From the NCBI GenBank assembly GCA_002282015.1, contig NCIJ01000001.1, forward strand, positions 310,001 through 374,000: a DNA stretch of 64,000 nucleotides, read 5' to 3'. The translations under genes were made by a program, and so were the position numbers. Below the pieces are notes generated by a model that saw only the letters and a program-made list of their open reading frames with translations, ran no database searches and was not told where the DNA came from. Shown here one piece after another: positions 173 through 63,731 of this stretch (positions are counted from its first letter, which is position 1; every line of letters starts with the position of its first letter). The stretch comes from Sulfuricurvum sp. 17-40-25 (lineage in GTDB: Bacteria > Campylobacterota > Campylobacteria > Campylobacterales > Sulfurimonadaceae).

Positions 173-1499
173 TACTATCACCACCCAATACATATTCTAA
201 ATCGGCTTGCGCCTTGTTATATTCCCCTGCAAAGACGAGCGATTGCATTTTAGCTTCGCTGTAACGACGTTGATCTTCTAAAAGTTCATACACCCCATCG
301 AGCATACCGTTATAAAACAACTTTGTTTCCTCTAATATTTGTTGATTCACGGGGACAATTACGTCACTTGCTTCAACCGCTTTATCATGAGTATAACGTG
401 ACGCTGCATACGATTCTCGTACTTGCGATCGAATGTTTACTGCCATTTCATAGAGATGATGTACTTTTTGATTATACGTTGCTTGCGCTTTTGCTACACG
501 TCCCTGCCCAAAATCAAAGATAGGAATCGGAATTTTTATCCCAAAAGTGTTGAATCTCTGGCTATCCGTCTCTTTTTCACTTTCAGCCGATAATTCAATC
601 TCATTCAGTAATCGGGTATTTTGGGTGTACCCAGCATCTCGTGCGGCATAATCTACCGCTTTTATGGCAGCATTCATGTCTAAACGCTTCTTAATAGCTC
701 TTGTCTCCAACCCTTTGTCATCCGATGTCGGGGTTCCAAGTCCTAGAGGTGTGTTATCTAAGGTGTAGTTTGTTTGATTACCATAGAGACCCAAAATTCG
801 GTTCAACATTTCACGCGCCATCACATTTTCACGATTGAGATCCATTGCTTCAAGCCGTGCATGAGCATAGGTATCTTGTATTTTGAGTAAGTTCCGTTTT
901 GAGAGATTCCCCGCCGTATACTGACGAATCGCTAACTGGATAGAGGCTTCATGTGATTTCAACAAGTTAGTATATAAAGCCAACTTTTCTTGCGCTACAA
1001 AAGCATCAATGTAGGCTTTTTTAACCTCTCTTACCGTTCGTAAGACTTCATCCCCTACGCTAAATCGGGTCTCTTCCAACGCCACACCGCTAAGGTCTCT
1101 GCGAAGCGGTATCCAAAGAAGGTCCAAGAGTGCAACATCCAGACTTAACGTCGATCGTGTTACACCACCGGCATGTCCAATTGAGTAGCCTAATAACGGA
1201 TTACTCATCAGCCCAGCTTGTACCAGTTCACTTTGAGCCAGCCCGATTTGCGCATAGGTTTGCTGTAACGAGCGGTTATTGATCAGTGCTATGTGTACTG
1301 CAGTGTCTTGGCTTAGAGGTTTTACGAGAAGATCATTCACACTTTCACGTACTATCGCAGCTTCTTGGGGTGTTTTGATCCATTGAAGCTCTTTGGAGGT
1401 CTCTTTTTTGACACCGTTAAATACATCGTTTTGAGAAATCGTTGAACAGCCTGAAAGAACTAAAAGAGCTATAACCGAATATAAAATTTCTTTCTTCAT
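159..1499 (-). CDS. TolC-family outer membrane efflux lipoprotein
   Basis: This is a 446-residue outer membrane efflux protein of the TolC/CusC superfamily. It has a lipoprotein signal with lipobox LSGC near residue 18 and the repeated long helices of the family, for example the segment SELVQAGLMSNPLLGYS, which matches the usual exit-duct consensus. In a tripartite pump it forms the channel across the outer membrane. It lies between a small periplasmic protein gene (its ATG overlaps that stop as ATGA) and a multicopper oxidase, so export of copper or a similar metal is likely. No inner membrane RND or adaptor gene is visible here; they may lie beyond the left edge. Family confident, substrate inferred. 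Confidence 0.85.
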   Translation of the reverse strand: MKKEILYSVIALLVLSGCSTISQNDVFNGVKKETSKELQWIKTPQEAAIVRESVNDLLVKPLSQDTAVHIALINNRSLQQTYAQIGLAQSELVQAGLMSNPLLGYSIGHAGGVTRSTLSLDVALLDLLWIPLRRDLSGVALEETRFSVGDEVLRTVREVKKAYIDAFVAQEKLALYTNLLKSHEASIQLAIRQYTAGNLSKRNLLKIQDTYAHARLEAMDLNRENVMAREMLNRILGLYGNQTNYTLDNTPLGLGTPTSDDKGLETRAIKKRLDMNAAIKAVDYAARDAGYTQNTRLLNEIELSAESEKETDSQRFNTFGIKIPIPIFDFGQGRVAKAQATYNQKVHHLYEMAVNIRSQVRESYAASRYTHDKAVEASDVIVPVNQQILEETKLFYNGMLDGVYELLEDQRRYSEAKMQSLVFAGEYNKAQADLEYVLGGDSNGTK

Positions 1500-54368: not shown

Positions 54369-55904
54369 ATGAGCAAACAGCAAACGTTTTCAACTATCAT
54401 ATCAGCCAATCCCTATCGGAAAGACTTTTATGTTGGTACGTTAAACAGCATTTCCAGCATTGCTTCACCGTCATTTGTTAAAGAGCAATATGCAGTCTCT
54501 TTTTTAAATACAAAAGGATTTATTTCCGCTTTAATCGGTATTAGTAAAAATGTTCCTGAAGATGATATATACGATGCCTTAGAAAACAAAGTCTATGAAG
54601 AGCTAGCTCTTGATATAGCCGTTGAATACCAGTTTCAATACATTGAAGCCATTAATAACTCTACTGAGAGTGAACGTTTTTACCATGTATTTATCGTAGA
54701 TCCTCTTACCTTAGAACAAGAGTTTGCTCCTGCTGTAGAATCTATAAAGTACATCGATCAAATCGTACCCGTTCCCTTATTGCTAAAATCACTCTATGTA
54801 AAAGAAATTTTAGATCTTAGCGGAACACACGCCTTTATCTATTTTCAAGAAAATGACGCTTTCTTAACGATTTACAGAGATCAAGAATTTGTCTATACAA
54901 AATCACTCAAATACTCTTTAAAACAAATGCATGAGCGTTTTTGTGAGATATTAGGTGAAATTATTGATTTAGCAAGTTTTGAAAATATCTTAGCGATGCA
55001 AGGGCTAAACCCGAGTAATTCAGACTATCAAAAAGCTTTTTTCAAGCTCTTTGGAGAAATATTTCTTCATATCAATGATGTCATCACGTATGCTAAACGT
55101 GCTTTTGAGATCAAACAATTTGATGCCATTTATACAGGTACAGCCGTTGGCAGTATCAGCGGACTTGATGAATATGCGCAAACCTATCTCGGACTAAAAG
55201 CACATCCATTTGAATTTGATTACGGATTTAAAACTGCTGATAAAGTCGTTGACCAAATCCATCAATTAATGCATTTGTATGCACGTCTTGAATCCGAAGA
55301 GCGTTATGAGTGTAATTTCACCCTATTCCATCGTCCACCACCTTTTGCTAAGCGTGACAGTGGCAAACTTATTTTGGTTACTGCCGCTGCCTTGGCTGCA
55401 GCATTACTGTATCCAGGTACCTATTGGGGACTTTCATATGTGGAAGAGTTTCATTATGCTCTGATGAATCAAGAATATGAAAAAGTACATATTGAAAAAA
55501 CCACTCGAGAACAAATCATTAATTTAAAAACAGCCAATAAAAATGCAGCTCAAGCCCTTTTAGATGAGCAAAAAACAGCGTATAAACAAAAGCAAGACAC
55601 CTTAACTCAGGTTCATGATAAAAAAGTAAACTATCCTATGAAAGCTAAAATTGCAGCTGATTTTACCCGTAGCTTTAACCAATATCGTGTTAAATTGCAA
55701 TCTATGGGGTACACTGAAGACAGCAATTCAACCGATAAAACATTTACTTTCATGCTAACCGCTGCTAAGACACAAGACATAACCGCACTTCTTAAATATC
55801 TTACCGATTCTAAAAGAGATAGCTTCACCTTTGATCTTCAACTTATATCCTATGATGAAACTAAAAAGTCTTATCTCAGTGAACTTAAGGCGGTACTGAA
55901 ATGA
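54369..55904 (+). CDS. MshI-like pilus assembly protein (PilM-like plus PilN-like)
   Basis: The 511-residue protein has a large cytoplasmic actin-like part (about 1-315, with LDLSGTHAFIYFQENDAFLT), one membrane helix (about 335-355, KLILVTAAALAAALLYPGTY), a coiled coil (about 365-425) and a ferredoxin-like end (TFTFMLTAAKTQDITALLK). This corresponds to PilM and PilN in one chain, as in MSHA and type II secretion inner membrane platforms. It is the first pilus gene, 9 bases after the Csd4-like gene. Family from context and layout; sequence motifs are weak. Confidence 0.72.
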   Translation: MSKQQTFSTIISANPYRKDFYVGTLNSISSIASPSFVKEQYAVSFLNTKGFISALIGISKNVPEDDIYDALENKVYEELALDIAVEYQFQYIEAINNSTESERFYHVFIVDPLTLEQEFAPAVESIKYIDQIVPVPLLLKSLYVKEILDLSGTHAFIYFQENDAFLTIYRDQEFVYTKSLKYSLKQMHERFCEILGEIIDLASFENILAMQGLNPSNSDYQKAFFKLFGEIFLHINDVITYAKRAFEIKQFDAIYTGTAVGSISGLDEYAQTYLGLKAHPFEFDYGFKTADKVVDQIHQLMHLYARLESEERYECNFTLFHRPPPFAKRDSGKLILVTAAALAAALLYPGTYWGLSYVEEFHYALMNQEYEKVHIEKTTREQIINLKTANKNAAQALLDEQKTAYKQKQDTLTQVHDKKVNYPMKAKIAADFTRSFNQYRVKLQSMGYTEDSNSTDKTFTFMLTAAKTQDITALLKYLTDSKRDSFTFDLQLISYDETKKSYLSELKAVLK

Positions 55905-56536
55905 AATTTAATATCGAAAACTACCTTTATTCACTAGATCAGATGCTTTCTTTAAAAAGTGAACGTGATAAAACAATGATGTTCGTAATGATCTTCGCAT
56001 CACTGTTTGCCTTTTCTTATTTATTGTTATGGGAAAGTTCTGAAGCATCATTTCAAATTTCGCATGAAAAAGCCATCAAGATGGAAAGTGATCTCTCAAG
56101 TGATAAAGGTTATTTAGAAATCAATCCTATTGAAAGAATCGCACAGCTTGAACAAGAAACCGTAGCCATACAAATGGATGAGCAACACTATATACAATAT
56201 AACAGCTATATAAAAGATCAAATTGAACAAATTTCATCGCTCTATTATGATGAAAAAGCATGGGGTGGATATTTAGACTCTATCTCAAAATATGCCCGTG
56301 CGTATAATGTAAAACTGCTGAACTTTGGGAATACCCTCACAATGGACAATAGTTCATTTGGCCATGTATTAGATATCAGTATCAAAGCAGAGGGACCTTA
56401 TAAAAATACTCTCAAATTTATTAATGCATTGGAACAAAGCTATCTTGTTGTTGATCTTCACGACATGCACATGGATGCAGATAAAAAACTGACAAGTGAT
56501 CTCAACATCTCAGTGTGGGGGATTGTACGACAATGA
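55901..56536 (+). CDS. MshJ/PilO-like pilus assembly protein
   Basis: The 211-residue protein has a short cytoplasmic start, a membrane helix (about 24-42, MMFVMIFASLFAFSYLLLW), a coiled coil (about 50-110) and a ferredoxin-like end (HVLDISIKAEGPYKNTLKFI). It overlaps the MshI-like gene by four bases and is the expected partner in the inner membrane alignment complex. Confidence 0.75.
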   Translation: MKFNIENYLYSLDQMLSLKSERDKTMMFVMIFASLFAFSYLLLWESSEASFQISHEKAIKMESDLSSDKGYLEINPIERIAQLEQETVAIQMDEQHYIQYNSYIKDQIEQISSLYYDEKAWGGYLDSISKYARAYNVKLLNFGNTLTMDNSSFGHVLDISIKAEGPYKNTLKFINALEQSYLVVDLHDMHMDADKKLTSDLNISVWGIVRQ

Positions 56537-57057
56537 AGACATTTATAATCATCTCTAGTTTCTTTACGCTGATGCTTCAAGCATCTAATTCCATCAACAC
56601 ACCAATGAGCGTACCCTCTTTAGGAAATGTTACCGTGCTTCAATCAAAAAGCGATAAAGAACTGGCTTGGGTGGATGAACAAATTCAGGCCATTCTTCCT
56701 TCAAGAATCGGTGTTGCAGATGGATACATAAACTCACTAAATGATCCTATGAAATACACCGCCCAAGCTCCTAAATCAGGAGACGGCATGATAAAAATGT
56801 TAGCACCGCCAAAACTCGGAGGGCTTCCTGGTATGCCTTTGCTTCCTAAAGTTGTTGAGGAACCATTACGATTGCAAGGATTGATGAATAAATCGGCTCT
56901 AATAAATGGTAAGTGGTATCGCTTGAATGATCCTATTCGAGCTTATACCTTGGCCGAAATCAAGCCAGGCTCAATTTTGTTATCCGGTAGCAAGGGTCAA
57001 CAACTGATCTTATTTATCAGTAAACAAAATAACAATATCAAAATTAATACCAAATAG
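56533..57057 (+). CDS. MshK/PilP-like periplasmic pilus protein
   Basis: The ATG at 56533 overlaps the preceding stop (ATGA) and starts a signal peptide (MKTFIIISSFFTLMLQA). The 174-residue product has a Pro/Gly-rich middle (PPKLGGLPGMPLLPKVVEE) and a C-terminal beta-rich part with RLQGLMNKSALINGKWYRLN, similar to the homology region of PilP and GspC that docks on the secretin. It directly precedes the secretin gene. Confidence 0.72.
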   Translation: MKTFIIISSFFTLMLQASNSINTPMSVPSLGNVTVLQSKSDKELAWVDEQIQAILPSRIGVADGYINSLNDPMKYTAQAPKSGDGMIKMLAPPKLGGLPGMPLLPKVVEEPLRLQGLMNKSALINGKWYRLNDPIRAYTLAEIKPGSILLSGSKGQQLILFISKQNNNIKINTK

Positions 57058-57066
57058 GAAAGCAAA

Positions 57067-58654
57067 ATGAGACCAGTATTGACATCAAATGCACGAGCAT
57101 TCTTATTATCAGTTGCGACAGCTACACTATTAAGCACATCAGCATATGCAGACTGTACCTATGAACTCTTCAACATTGCCTCCATCAAAGGAACCAGTAT
57201 CGGTGACTTTATTGATCAAATCAGTGATGAATGTGGAATGAGTATTATTGTTGCTGATTCTGAGGCTGAAAAAATTCTTCTCAAACAAATGAACAAAACC
57301 TACCTTAAAAATTTGACTATTAATGAAGTTTTAGACTTAATTATAAAAGAAAATGGACTTCAATATACGTTACAAAACAATGTATTAAAAATTTCATATA
57401 TTTCTACAAAAACGTACAATATTGATTATATCATCTCTCAGCGTAAAGGCGAGGGAAAAGCTAATGTATCCTTAAGTGGAGGAGGAATGGCTGGTGGTGC
57501 AGCTGGTGGTGCAGCTGGTGGTGCAGCTGGTGGTGCAGCTGGTGGTGCAGCTGGTGGTGCAGCTGGTGGTGCAGCTGGTGGTGCAGCTTGGTGCAGCTGG
57601 TGGTGCAGCAGCTGGTGGTGGTGCGTCTTCCGTATCAGGTATCAATATAACTTCCAGTGATGAAGTACTGTTTTGGGACACTCTTGATAAAGAAATTGCC
57701 AATGTACTAAACCGACCAGAAGACACTTATAAAGCATCGATTCCGATGATTAATAAGCATGCAGGACTCATAACGGTCAGTGCAACTGGGCAGCAACTCA
57801 AACGATTGGATGCCTATCTCGATCAACTTCAAAAAAAGATGCAAACACAGGTACTCATTGATGTGAAGATGTACAGTGTTACCTTTTCTGATGGGTCAAC
57901 TACTGGGGTAGATTGGGCACAACTTTATGCTCTTCAAAAGGTCGAGCTGGGATTTGATTGGGAAAAAACATACACTTCACCAGACACCAAGACCTTTACC
58001 CTTAGCGCAGGTGGTAGTCTTGATCAAGTAATCAAATTTTTAAAAACCCAAGGTGATGTATCATCTATCTCTAACCCAAAAGTTTTAACACTAAACAATC
58101 AAACAGCACTTATTACTGCAGGAACCGAACTTTTTTATAAAATTACAAATTCAACCACAGCAACTGGAACAGCTACCACCCAAACAGACAATGAAATCAT
58201 TAACTCTGTCTTTTCAGGTGTTTTATTGGATATAACTCCTGAAATAGCAAATGATGGTACTATAACCTTACGCATAAATCCATCTCTTTCTGAAGCTGTT
58301 GGAACTATTTCAGCTGATAATTCAAATCGTAAAATGCCTCCTGACTTAACCCGTAGACAGATGTCCTCTGTTATAAGTGTCAAAGATGGAAGCCGTGTAA
58401 TTTTAGGTGGTTTGATCAGTTCAAAAATGGTGACTGATGGGAATAGACTTCCACTATTGGGTAGTATTCCTGTTTTAGGCTGGCTCTTTAAAACTGAAAC
58501 AACCAGTAAAAAAACCGAAGAAATCGTAATGATCATAGAACCTCATATTATTCAAAAACAAGACAGTAAAGTCGGTTTATCTGACTTAGGATATCAACGT
58601 ATCACACCTACGCTTGAAAAAGAGCTTTTAGAGATGAAAGAATCTAGCAAATAA
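57067..58654 (+). pseudogene. mshL: MshL-type secretin, reading frame interrupted in a Gly-Ala repeat
   Basis: The first frame (57067-57660) encodes a signal peptide and an STN/N0 domain (FIDQISDECGMSIIV, then INEVLDLIIKENGLQYTL), then enters a Gly-Gly-Ala-Ala repeat and stops soon after. The second frame (from about 57590 to 58654) carries the rest: secretin core (VLIDVKMYSVTF, ISNPKVLTLNNQTALITAG) and the end VILGGLISSKM, LPLLGSIPVLGWLF. A perfect join would give about 528 residues. The break is in the ninth repeat unit, which has 10 bases, not 12. The outer membrane channel for the pilus would be lost unless the frame is restored. It may be real, phase-variable or an assembly error. Confidence 0.85.
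57493..57610 (+). repeat. 12-bp tandem repeat (GGTGGTGCAGCT) coding Gly-Gly-Ala-Ala
   Basis: Eight exact 12-base units run from 57493 to 57588, followed by a 10-base unit (57589-57598) and one more, slightly changed unit (57599-57610). Full-unit changes keep frame; the short unit shifts it by two bases lost (or one base gained). It encodes a flexible linker between the N-domain and the secretin core. Confidence 0.95.
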
Positions 58655-58657
58655 TAC

Positions 58658-59467
58658 ATGGAGCCCTCTCTATTTTCAAAACCTCGTGACCTGTTTACAG
58701 ACGTAGTCAATCCAAGGGACTACGTTCAAATTGACAGCGTATCCCATATGTACCAAAGTCTTAAAACATCGGTCCAAAAACCCCTTAAAATGATTTTGCT
58801 GTATGGACGACCAGGGACAGGTAAAAGCATGCTTTTACATAAACTCCATCATGACCTCTCAAAACATCAAAAAGTATGCATGATTGATATCCCTATCATT
58901 GATGAAGACGATTTTTTACGCGTATTGGCTCAAAAAGTATACTCGTATGCCAGTCGCGAAGCACTCACTCTTACGCGATTTTTAGAACTCTCCTCTGCAG
59001 TAAACTTCCCTGTTATCCCTATTGTATTACTAGATGAAGCACAGCTATACAGTGCGGCATTAATGGAAAAAATTCGTCTGATCTCAGATGCCCGTGCATT
59101 GAAATTTGTCATCACATTACATAAAACTGACAATGAAGATATCATTGCCAAAGAACATTTTCAAACTCGTATTTGGGAAAGTATTGAACTTCAAAATGCT
59201 TCTCATGAAGAACTTAAAATATACATACAAAAAAAACTTCTCAAAGCCAACTGCTTCGATGTAGCCAACATGATTAATGAGAAAAATATTAAACTTATCA
59301 GCAAGTTAACCCGTGGAAATTACCGCGAATCCAACAAACTTATGTTTGCCCTATTTAGTCTCTATGCATGGTATGAAGAGCATAATCCTAGTAAAATAAA
59401 ATACAATTCCCTCAGTACAAAATACATAGAAATGGCTGCCATTCATACTGGACTTATTAATGCTTGA
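58658..59467 (+). CDS. mshM: MshM/ExeA-like AAA ATPase
   Basis: The 269-residue ATPase has Walker A GRPGTGKSMLLHKL (about residues 50-63) and Walker B IVLLDEAQLYS (about 124). It belongs to the ExeA-type ATPases that help place the secretin in the wall. It follows the secretin by three bases and overlaps the next gene by eight. There is no C-terminal peptidoglycan-binding domain, unlike ExeA. Confidence 0.85.
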   Translation: MEPSLFSKPRDLFTDVVNPRDYVQIDSVSHMYQSLKTSVQKPLKMILLYGRPGTGKSMLLHKLHHDLSKHQKVCMIDIPIIDEDDFLRVLAQKVYSYASREALTLTRFLELSSAVNFPVIPIVLLDEAQLYSAALMEKIRLISDARALKFVITLHKTDNEDIIAKEHFQTRIWESIELQNASHEELKIYIQKKLLKANCFDVANMINEKNIKLISKLTRGNYRESNKLMFALFSLYAWYEEHNPSKIKYNSLSTKYIEMAAIHTGLINA

Positions 59468-60197
59468 TATTTCAAAATTAGAACACCGTTGGCTGAAATA
59501 CAAGATCAAAAGTATACTTCCTTATGCTGCGATATTGGCTGTCATTATTATTTCCATCATCACATTCTCTTTTTTAATGTTCAATAAAACAACAACGATA
59601 CCCATGGTCACATCAAAAAAAGAAGATTTAAAAGTAAAAACACCCGTACCTGTTCCTTCCATAAACGATGAAAACAGCATGTTACTAGAACCATCAATGC
59701 AGTTTTTACAATCTATGAGTGGATCTACCCCTCTAGTTGAGAGTGTCCCTACTACTCCCGTACCTGTTGTCCCCATTAAAAGGTCACTCCCTCTAGCACA
59801 AGTACAGGCACAAACCGACACAGTACCTCCCATAGTAAAACCTCCACAAGTACCTGTCGTAAAAGGAAAATTAACCTCAATAAAACGCGATGATGCTGCA
59901 TTTGATATCCATGAGCTTGAAGAGCGATTTAAAAATAATTCCAATCCAAATCTAGGGCTTTACATTGCACGATACCATTATGATCATGCAAACTACACAG
60001 AGTCCTATAATTATGCGTTAAAGACAAATGGCATAAATGCTACCATGGATGAGAGCTGGCTTATTTTTGCTAAATCATTGGTTAAACTGGGGAAAGAAGA
60101 TCAAGCTAAAAAAACACTTCAGCTGTATATTTCTAATTCTAACTCACAAAACGCTAAAAATTATTTAAACACCTTAACCAAAGAGTATTCAAAATGA
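59460..60197 (+). CDS. MshN-like membrane-anchored protein with TPR-like end
   Basis: The 245-residue protein has one membrane helix (about 20-42, AAILAVIIISIITFSFLMF), a long Pro/Val/Thr-rich span (about 55-135) that could reach across the wall, and a helical repeat end (LGLYIARYHYDHANYTESYN). In MSHA loci a TPR protein, MshN, sits in this place. The match is by layout and position. Confidence 0.65.
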   Translation: MLDISKLEHRWLKYKIKSILPYAAILAVIIISIITFSFLMFNKTTTIPMVTSKKEDLKVKTPVPVPSINDENSMLLEPSMQFLQSMSGSTPLVESVPTTPVPVVPIKRSLPLAQVQAQTDTVPPIVKPPQVPVVKGKLTSIKRDDAAFDIHELEERFKNNSNPNLGLYIARYHYDHANYTESYNYALKTNGINATMDESWLIFAKSLVKLGKEDQAKKTLQLYISNSNSQNAKNYLNTLTKEYSK

Positions 60198-60739
60198 TAA
60201 AATTATTTTTCACCCCACTACTCTTTCTTTGTACTCTTAATGCTGATGTTACTACCCAAATGCTCCAGCTATATCAAAAAGGTGCATACATCCAGGCATG
60301 TGCTTTAGGAGTGCAAAACTTTAAACTTATTCAACCAAACGAAGCATCAACTTCTTTATATGCTTTTTCATGTTTAAATGCAGATCAAATTGATCGCCTA
60401 AATACACCCATAAAAACCCTCAATCAAAGTTCTGAAGCACGGGCTAATGCTTCCTACTTTTCACTCTTGATACTGCAAAAAAGGCTTCTTATACAATCCC
60501 TTTATGATAGTTATCCTCTGAAACAACTCAAATTGCCGGCTAGTTCGCATTTGCTTTCTAGAGTTTTTGATTACTATTGTAAGAACCCTCAAACAAGCAA
60601 TACAATCAAGGAATATACCGATACAAGTAATCCACGACAAAGTTATAAACTTTATACGATTCAAATCGATAGTGTTAAAACATTCGCCATTGATGAATAC
60701 TATGATAAAATATTAGTAAAACACCATGTATATCAATAA
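60194..60739 (+). CDS. Exported protein of unknown function in the MSHA operon
   Basis: The 181-residue protein has a signal peptide (MIKLFFTPLLFLCTLNAD) and is mostly helical, with four Cys residues spread along it (QACALGVQNFK, FSCLNADQ, YYCKNPQT). It overlaps the MshN-like gene by four bases and lies 11 bases before mshE. I do not recognise a family or find it in the standard MSHA gene list; it is a likely extra periplasmic part. Confidence 0.6.
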   Translation: MIKLFFTPLLFLCTLNADVTTQMLQLYQKGAYIQACALGVQNFKLIQPNEASTSLYAFSCLNADQIDRLNTPIKTLNQSSEARANASYFSLLILQKRLLIQSLYDSYPLKQLKLPASSHLLSRVFDYYCKNPQTSNTIKEYTDTSNPRQSYKLYTIQIDSVKTFAIDEYYDKILVKHHVYQ

Positions 60740-60750
60740 AAGAGGCTGAT

Positions 60751-62487
60751 ATGGATCGCATTACGCATGATTTACTAGAAAAAACCCATATCTCGCAACA
60801 GCAAATTGATCGATTGATTTCAAGAGGTGTTCAAGACGACACTATTTTAGAAACCTTAACCAAGGTTGGAGCGATTTCTCTCAACTTTGTGAAACGTTTT
60901 GTGGTAGAGCGCATTCGAACAGGTCAATACGATGTCTCTATTATTAAAAATTACCATTTTTTGGATGAGTCTTCAATTTTACACCTTCTCGCGGAAGCTC
61001 TAGAATTAGCTTTTATTGATTTAGATTCCATAGATATGGATTATCGCTTAGTTGAAAAAATTTCTACGGCCCAATTAAAACGCTTCAATGCATTGCCAGT
61101 TTCACAAGATGATATGTACGTTGTAGTCGCTTTTTGCGATCCTCTTAATATTGAAGCGCAAGAGTCCATTCAACGTCTTTTCCCGCGTAAATCATTGCAA
61201 GTCGCGCTTTCAACCGAAAAGCAAATTCAAGCTTATCTTTTCAAGATTGAGCTAAAAGACAGCGTTAAAGAACTTGTCAATAATATTCGTAATGAATTAC
61301 GCAGTATTGGCAGCGTAGAAGAACAACAAGAAGCTTCTTCCATTTTACAGCTTATTGACGTTATTTTAAAAGCATGTACCAAAGCACGTGCGAGTGATAT
61401 ACACATTGAACCAACCGAAAAAAACTGTGTTGTTCGCGGTAGAATTGATGGTAAACTAACTGAGATTTTTATCTTTGACCGTGATATCTATCCACCGCTT
61501 GCATCTCGTATTAAATTGCTTGCAAACCTCGATATTGCTGAGCGTAGAAAACCGCAAGACGGGCGTTTTTCCGCGCTGGTCATGGAAGCCGAATTTGATT
61601 TTCGTATTTCTACCTTACCTATTTTATATGGTGAATCCATCGTTATGCGTATTCTTGATAAAACCAAAGCGCTTGTACGGCTGGAAGAATCAGGAATGGA
61701 TCAAGCAAGCTACAAAAAACTCATTAAAGCACTCGAATCCCCTTTTGGAATTATTCTTGTCACTGGGCCTACAGGAAGTGGTAAGACAACGACACTTTAC
61801 GGTGCTCTCAATGAGCTTCGAAACGTTGAAGACAAAGTCATTACCGTCGAAGACCCCGTAGAGTATCGAATGAATCTGATTCAACAAGTACAAGTCAATC
61901 CAAAAGTAGGCCTCTCTTTTGCCGATGCACTGCGTTCTATTTTACGTCAAGACCCTGATAAGATTATGATTGGAGAAATTCGTGACCATGAAACGCTTGA
62001 AATCGCGATTAAAGCCGCACTTACAGGACATATGGTTATCTCGACCCTGCATACCAATGATGCAATCAGTGCAATTACCCGTATGTCCGATATGGGGATA
62101 CAACCCTATCTTATCAGTGGGGCAGTCGTAGCCATACAAGCGCAGCGGTTGGTTCGAAAGATTTGTCACTTCTGTAAAAAAGAAGCAGATATCCCCACAT
62201 CATTAAGAGAAGAATACGCTGCCATTATCCCTGCTGGTACTGTTTTTTATACAGGGGCTGGCTGTAAAGAGTGTAATGGTTCCGGATATATGGGACGTGA
62301 AATGATTTGTGAAGTATTGGTTATTTCGGAAGAAATATCAAGCATGATCGCTCGTGAAGCAGCTAAAGACGATATTTTTAAGCAAGCAAGAGAAGAAGGC
62401 TTTATGGGAATGTTTGAAAACGGGATGAATAAAGCCATAGAAGGTATCACAACAATAGATGAAATATTAAAGGTGGCCAAAGGATGA
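60751..62487 (+). CDS. mshE: MshE/GspE-type pilus assembly ATPase
   Basis: The 578-residue ATPase has the type II/IV motor core: Walker A GPTGSGKTTTLYGAL (about 338-352), Asp box TVEDPVEY, Walker B KIMIGEIRDHETLEIA, and His box STLHTNDAISAI. Two CxxC pairs (CHFCKK near 472, CKECNG near 506) form the zinc knuckle. The N-terminal domain has the MshEN/GspE fold, but I do not see the RLGxxL...LxxxLxxQ c-di-GMP motif of Vibrio MshE. It powers pilus extension with MshG. Confidence 0.92.
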   Translation: MDRITHDLLEKTHISQQQIDRLISRGVQDDTILETLTKVGAISLNFVKRFVVERIRTGQYDVSIIKNYHFLDESSILHLLAEALELAFIDLDSIDMDYRLVEKISTAQLKRFNALPVSQDDMYVVVAFCDPLNIEAQESIQRLFPRKSLQVALSTEKQIQAYLFKIELKDSVKELVNNIRNELRSIGSVEEQQEASSILQLIDVILKACTKARASDIHIEPTEKNCVVRGRIDGKLTEIFIFDRDIYPPLASRIKLLANLDIAERRKPQDGRFSALVMEAEFDFRISTLPILYGESIVMRILDKTKALVRLEESGMDQASYKKLIKALESPFGIILVTGPTGSGKTTTLYGALNELRNVEDKVITVEDPVEYRMNLIQQVQVNPKVGLSFADALRSILRQDPDKIMIGEIRDHETLEIAIKAALTGHMVISTLHTNDAISAITRMSDMGIQPYLISGAVVAIQAQRLVRKICHFCKKEADIPTSLREEYAAIIPAGTVFYTGAGCKECNGSGYMGREMICEVLVISEEISSMIAREAAKDDIFKQAREEGFMGMFENGMNKAIEGITTIDEILKVAKG

Positions 62488-63731
62488 AGTACTTTCTCGT
62501 AACCGTTCTAAGTAAAGGTAAAAAAACCGATCATGGCGTGTATGCTGAAAATAAAAAAGAGGCACAATATCTTGCCAAAATAAAACACTCTGGCATGATT
62601 TTAAAAGCCGTTGAAACAGCCGCTCCCCTCGAGGATCAATTCAAAGCCTTTAAAGACAATTTGTTGGCAAATTTTAAAAAACGAAAATTAAAACCCGATA
62701 GCCTTATCGCCGCCATACGTCAATTAGCCGTTATGACGAATGCCGGTATTTCTATTCATGATTCGATGCATGAAATTGCAGATGCAACCAATGATGAAAC
62801 ACTCAAAGCTGTTTTAGATGGAATGGCAGAAGATATTAACTCTGGACTTAGTCTCTCCCATACAGCTGCTAAATACAGTTTTGAACTAGGAACACTCTCT
62901 CTAGCCATGATCGAACTGGGAGAAAAAACCGGTAATATGGCAGAAGCCCTGCATAAACTCGCTGACATGCTTGAAGAGATTCGACGTAATATCATCAAGT
63001 TTAAAAAAGCAATGGCCTATCCTCGAAACGTCATGATCGCGATGGCAGTTGCATTTACGATTTTGATTTCGTACGTTGTTCCACAGTTTAAAACTATTTT
63101 TGAACAGCTTGGGGCAGAACTTCCAATGCCTACTTTGATTCTCCTCTTCTTAGAACATCTATTTAATACCTATGGTTTGTATGTGCTGGCAGGATTATTC
63201 GCGTTTTTCATGGCATTTCGCTACATGTTAGATCACAACCAAGAATTTAAGTACAAATGGCATCAAACGCTTCTAAAACTCTACTTGATCAAAAACATCA
63301 TTATGTTTTCCACTCTGAGTCGTTTTACCCTTGTATTCTCAGAACTCGTACGCGCTGGTATCCCAATTGCCGAAGCACTAGAAACATCTGTCGCTATGAT
63401 CGACAACCTCCCCTTACGAGAACGGTTACTTATCGTCCGTTCAACCGTTGAAAAGGGAGGGTCATTGCATTCGGGACTTAAAGAAACAAAGCTCTTTGAA
63501 AACATGATTATCCAAATGATATCGGCCGGAGAATCAAGCGGTTCTCTGGATGCCATGCTTGAGAAAGTCATGGAGTATTACAAAATGCGCTTTGATGCTA
63601 TTATTGACGGTCTATCCGAAGCAATCGAGCCAATTATGCTCTTTATGATCGCGGGTATGGTTATTTTGCTGGCACTGGGAATTTTCTTACCGATGTGGTC
63701 CATGGGAGATGCCGTTCAAGGGCGGCATTAA
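62484..63731 (+). CDS. mshG: MshG/GspF-type inner membrane platform protein
   Basis: The 415-residue protein has the two GspF domains (about 75-195 and 280-400) with IRQLAVMTNAGISIHDSMHE and FSELVRAGIPIAEALE, and three membrane helices (about 180-205, 228-250, 380-410). It is the platform for the MshE motor. It is the last gene of the operon, overlapping mshE by four bases, with a terminator just after. Confidence 0.93.
   Translation: MKYFLVTVLSKGKKTDHGVYAENKKEAQYLAKIKHSGMILKAVETAAPLEDQFKAFKDNLLANFKKRKLKPDSLIAAIRQLAVMTNAGISIHDSMHEIADATNDETLKAVLDGMAEDINSGLSLSHTAAKYSFELGTLSLAMIELGEKTGNMAEALHKLADMLEEIRRNIIKFKKAMAYPRNVMIAMAVAFTILISYVVPQFKTIFEQLGAELPMPTLILLFLEHLFNTYGLYVLAGLFAFFMAFRYMLDHNQEFKYKWHQTLLKLYLIKNIIMFSTLSRFTLVFSELVRAGIPIAEALETSVAMIDNLPLRERLLIVRSTVEKGGSLHSGLKETKLFENMIIQMISAGESSGSLDAMLEKVMEYYKMRFDAIIDGLSEAIEPIMLFMIAGMVILLALGIFLPMWSMGDAVQGRH

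Follow-up and report, generated by a model that had tools for sequence, protein, structure and literature searches.

The mshL gene in the window, i.e., the whole 64,000-nucleotide stretch of Sulfuricurvum DNA analyzed here, is a broken or mis-assembled, but otherwise ordinary, member of the MshL family of MSHA pilus secretins (TIGR02519), from which it differs by a frame break as sequenced. The break lies in a tandem repeat. Judged by comparison across the genus and family, this repeat is a low-complexity, hypervariable linker that joins the N-terminal domain of MshL to its secretin domain. All linker lengths but two, and all repeat periods found in the linkers, are multiples of three; therefore, the linker is a fast-changing spacer that is resized in whole codons. 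As the origin of the frame break, we favor an artefact over a recent genuine loss of the gene.

The mshL Gene and Its Frame Break

The 5′ part of mshL (57067..57489, + strand, frame 1) encodes a signal peptide and an N-terminal, STN/N0-like domain, which scores 25.7 bits against Pfam STN, slightly below the cut-off; the 5′ part is 88-89% identical to the relative G025. The 3′ part (57590..58654, + strand), which is open in frame 2, encodes the end of the linker, an N1-like region and the secretin domain. This downstream part alone passes the MshL model TIGR02519 (255.6 bits against a cut-off of 250.2) and scores 150.9 bits against PF00263, over the cut-off. Together with the MSHA-type operon around the gene, the TIGR02519 score upholds the identification as an MSHA secretin that had been proposed in the sequence-only reading. 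Instead of a single open frame from the signal peptide to the secretin domain, the gene comprises two ORFs in different frames, 57067-57660 (197 aa) and 57476-58654 (392 aa), which overlap from 57476 to 57660. The secretin half contains no stop codon or frame lesion down to 58654; thus, the claim that there is no further lesion holds. It should be noted that the variable loop found in the secretin part of relatives is much shorter in the MshL of the window (57940-58030), where it is in frame.

The in-phase part of the repeat, encoding Ala-Gly-Gly-Ala (57490..57588, + strand, 99 nt), consists of eight exact copies of the 12-base unit GCTGGTGGTGCA, starting at 57490, 57502, 57514, 57526, 57538, 57550, 57562 and 57574, plus three bases. 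A 10-base unit, read directly from the sequence (57586..57595, + strand), is the site of the frame break, and frame 1 then runs into the TGA stop codon at 57658..57660 (+ strand), as seen in both the sequence and the ORF list. Direct reading and the ORFs thus confirm the succession of eight exact units and a 10-base unit, the resulting frame shift inside the repeat and the stop at 57660, all of which had been described earlier. The 10-base unit is followed by one full unit (57596-57607), after which the array degenerates. The out-of-phase remainder, by direct reading, is pure repeat as well (57589..57609, + strand, 21 nt); the 10-base step therefore leaves nothing but bases of the repeat unit, in two pure phases of 99 nt and then 21 nt. 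These phase lengths are also common assembler k-mer sizes, a post hoc coincidence to which we give no weight.

TRF reported the array at 57490-57617 with a period of 12, 10.8 copies and a score of 228. It found no second array in the window, and among the arrays in the 475 kb of the genome that were sampled, i.e., about a fifth of its 2.3 Mb, this one ranks first, with the runner-up scoring 129; therefore, the array is no chance feature. No second copy of the array was found in its own genome. When genome contigs were searched for the exact sequence of the break junction, no match was obtained, in a set from which records close to the window's genome may be missing. In the sampled genome, the repeat region that ranks second in strength consists of clustered 18-42-bp repeats in another ORF (L150, 15007-15149).

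The overlap of the two mshL frames could be expected if a programmed frameshift or a translational restart yielded a full or split secretin. We regard this as hardly credible. The split frame is not conserved in relatives, in which mshL is mostly a single open frame of about 510-612 aa, and the break contains neither a homopolymer run nor a known slippery motif. As to a restart, the internal ATG at 57487, preceded by a GGAGG-like stretch, belongs to the broken frame; translation begun in frame 2 would give a protein without a signal peptide. The suggestion of programmed recoding made in the sequence-only reading is therefore not supported.

The Pilus Operon

The neighbors of mshL are those of an MSHA biogenesis locus (MshEN/T2SSE, T2SSF, AAA and TPR-like proteins), and the remainder of the operon is intact. 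Upstream are full-length mshI-, mshJ- and mshK-like genes (54369..57057, + strand), which have tblastn matches in the syntenic locus L032 and, in the absence of family matches, are named by position alone. Downstream (58658..63731, + strand) are genes for an mshM-like ATPase and an mshN-like TPR protein, ORF 60194, mshE, identified by its MshEN and T2SSE domains, and mshG, identified by T2SSF, all of them open. Sulfuricurvum sp. LaCa_MAG_14 is a syntenic relative, and the assignment to the genus is based on it. In L032, tblastn found counterparts that cover essentially the full length of each of the eight neighbors of mshL; the MshN-like protein is matched more weakly, and the alignment of ORF 60194 begins later.

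The window's genome is a draft in 50 contigs, and mshL is its sole secretin-family match. Pilin-like N-methylation motifs are found on contigs other than that of mshL. Two of them lie at the extreme end of a 13.1-kb contig (G000 contig C3, 91-741; L155), and the end of this contig may cut the pilin locus.

The MshL Linker in the Genus and Family

In loci of the genus and family, we compared the segment of MshL that connects the N-terminal domain to the secretin part. In all searches, each half of the window's gene served as a query of its own, and the linker borders depend on the ends of tblastn matches. Linker length is divisible by three in 85 of the 87 distinct linkers of the family. The exceptions are the linker of the window and that of L013, which has an unrelated deletion of a larger piece. 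Apart from the deleted L013 linker, the linkers span about 22-62 codons, and they are rich in Gly, Ser, Thr, Ala and Gln. Tandem arrays are present in 32 of the 87 linkers, and each of the 42 TRF rows obtained for these 32 has a period divisible by three; for example, the L029 linker contains 7.3 copies of an 18-bp unit and the L031 linker 7.1 copies of a 9-bp unit, both assembled in frame. These observations show that linker length drifts by gain and loss of whole units, in multiples of three, such that the frame is kept.

The sequence-only reading had also raised the possibility of a slippage-based on/off switch of the pilus. The repeat is long and exact, hence probably unstable in length. 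However, the unit has 12 bases; therefore, ordinary slippage alters the length of the linker, not the frame, and cannot switch the gene. The frame could shift solely if the odd 10-base unit were gained or lost, in contrast to phase-variable genes, in which gain or loss of the repeat unit itself has this effect. The periods in the relatives' linkers, all multiples of three, also argue against a switch, as does the lack of any other array of more than four copies, a possible marker of contingency loci, in the 475 kb sampled. Such a switch is thus improbable and the proposal is not borne out. We give still less credence to a combined scheme, in which a length-variable MshL linker adjusts the pilus channel and, in this strain, changes in the number of copies of the odd 10-base unit turn the sole secretin on and off.

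Origin of the Frame Break

The 10-base unit is no part of the whole-unit drift of the linker. We consider it marginally probable that it represents either an off-register join in a read-length array or a local sequencing error, and that the gene in the cell is open; the assembly may have joined two stretches of the array out of register, or a sequencing error may have occurred there. Several observations point to such an artefact. The near-universal divisibility of linker lengths and periods by three in the family is one of them. The pure phases on either side of the junction fit an off-register join, whereas slippage of units would proceed in steps of 12. At about 100 bp, the exact array is near the length of short reads, and the assembly is a draft. 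As single-stranded DNA, the array can form hairpins (z -3.5). In addition, the gene encodes the only secretin of the genome in an intact operon, and its secretin half has no additional lesion. Conversely, the comparable arrays of L029 and L031 were assembled in frame. Apart from mshL, no obvious break is apparent in the ORF tiling of the window, which suggests good general base quality, although such codon-usage tiling detects gross breaks alone.

The alternative is a recent genuine loss, in which a rare deletion that does not correspond to whole repeat units, perhaps selected by pilus-binding phage or laboratory growth, knocks out the sole secretin, such that no MSHA pili are formed on the surface. 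We regard such a loss as a serious possibility, although on balance a doubtful one; these weights are a matter of judgement and not computed probabilities. To look for traces of decay, we compared the divergence of the secretin half with that of the N-terminal half, using simple identities and no tree. The ratio is 1.53 for the window and 1.40-2.14 for 25 intact relatives; accelerated decay of the secretin half was accordingly rejected. Because the ratio is within the intact range, constraint lasted until very recently, in agreement with the earlier impression that the break looks recent. Normal divergence and a lone lesion fit error and recent mutation alike. Taken together, the lone lesion, the intact operon, the normal divergence and the status of mshL as the sole secretin gene imply that the break either arose very recently or does not exist in the cell.

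A genuine loss has parallels. In Vibrio alginolyticus under filamentous phage, mshL, mshE and mshG were repeatedly mutated, in some cases by frameshifts (PMC9532999); these mutations are of the loss type and affect the same gene and operon. However, selection was shown in V. alginolyticus, whereas the Sulfuricurvum lesion is known from assembled sequence alone. The mshL gene is also broken in four genomes of the family, which indicates that real losses may occur and weighs against an artefact as well. All four are at sites other than that of the break in the window. In G008 (L013), a single deletion with a frame change (about 1160-1174, reverse strand) has removed the linker together with the end of the N domain before it and the start of the secretin part after it. 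The frame break in G032 (L082, near 439-466) is close to the signal peptide, and those in G050 (L075, near 1340-1367, reverse strand; a single-contig-scale assembly) and G052 (L078, near 1634-1637) are in the secretin part. The breaks in G032, G050 and G052, none of which is in the linker, may reflect either sequencing errors or genuine losses. Short mshL frames in G012, G034, G044 and G087 were rejected as linker breaks, since they represent contig ends; the true breaks, including the G008 deletion, are located elsewhere. Two features of the lesion disfavor a genuine loss in the window: it falls in the repetitive stretch, roughly 8% of the gene, for which assembly is least reliable, and its step is unlike any made by unit slippage. 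Furthermore, mshL remains a single open frame in the vast majority of relatives from the genus and family; therefore, loss is rare. We thus favor an artefact.

Discussion

The MshL linkers resemble the small basic repeats described for neisserial PilQ. These are polymorphic, separate two periplasmic domains and are reported to affect how efficiently pili are formed (PMC3441751). Like these repeats, the linkers of the family are low-complexity, in-frame and variable in repeat number, and are located between periplasmic domains of a secretin. The differences are the Gly/Ala composition of the linker in the window and the other secretin subfamily, and the comparison is one of sequences alone. The MshL linkers look like the PilQ-repeat kind of feature in another secretin subfamily. 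Such repeats were called unprecedented among secretins in the 2012 PilQ paper (PMC3441751); contrary to this, the MshL of the family contains secretin repeats in many genomes. The literature collection that we searched yielded no paper on repeats in MshL. A tandem repeat inside a gene for a surface structure is also shared with phase-variable contingency loci; however, unlike the short repeats of those loci, the mshL unit is divisible by three and its slippage is frame-neutral.

The broken mshL matters little unless reads confirm the break. A real break would leave the strain without its sole outer-membrane secretin, and MSHA pili should then be absent. The wider result is that the MshL of the family carries a fast-changing, frame-keeping repeat linker, comparable to the neisserial PilQ repeats, and the effect of this linker on pilus function could be tested.
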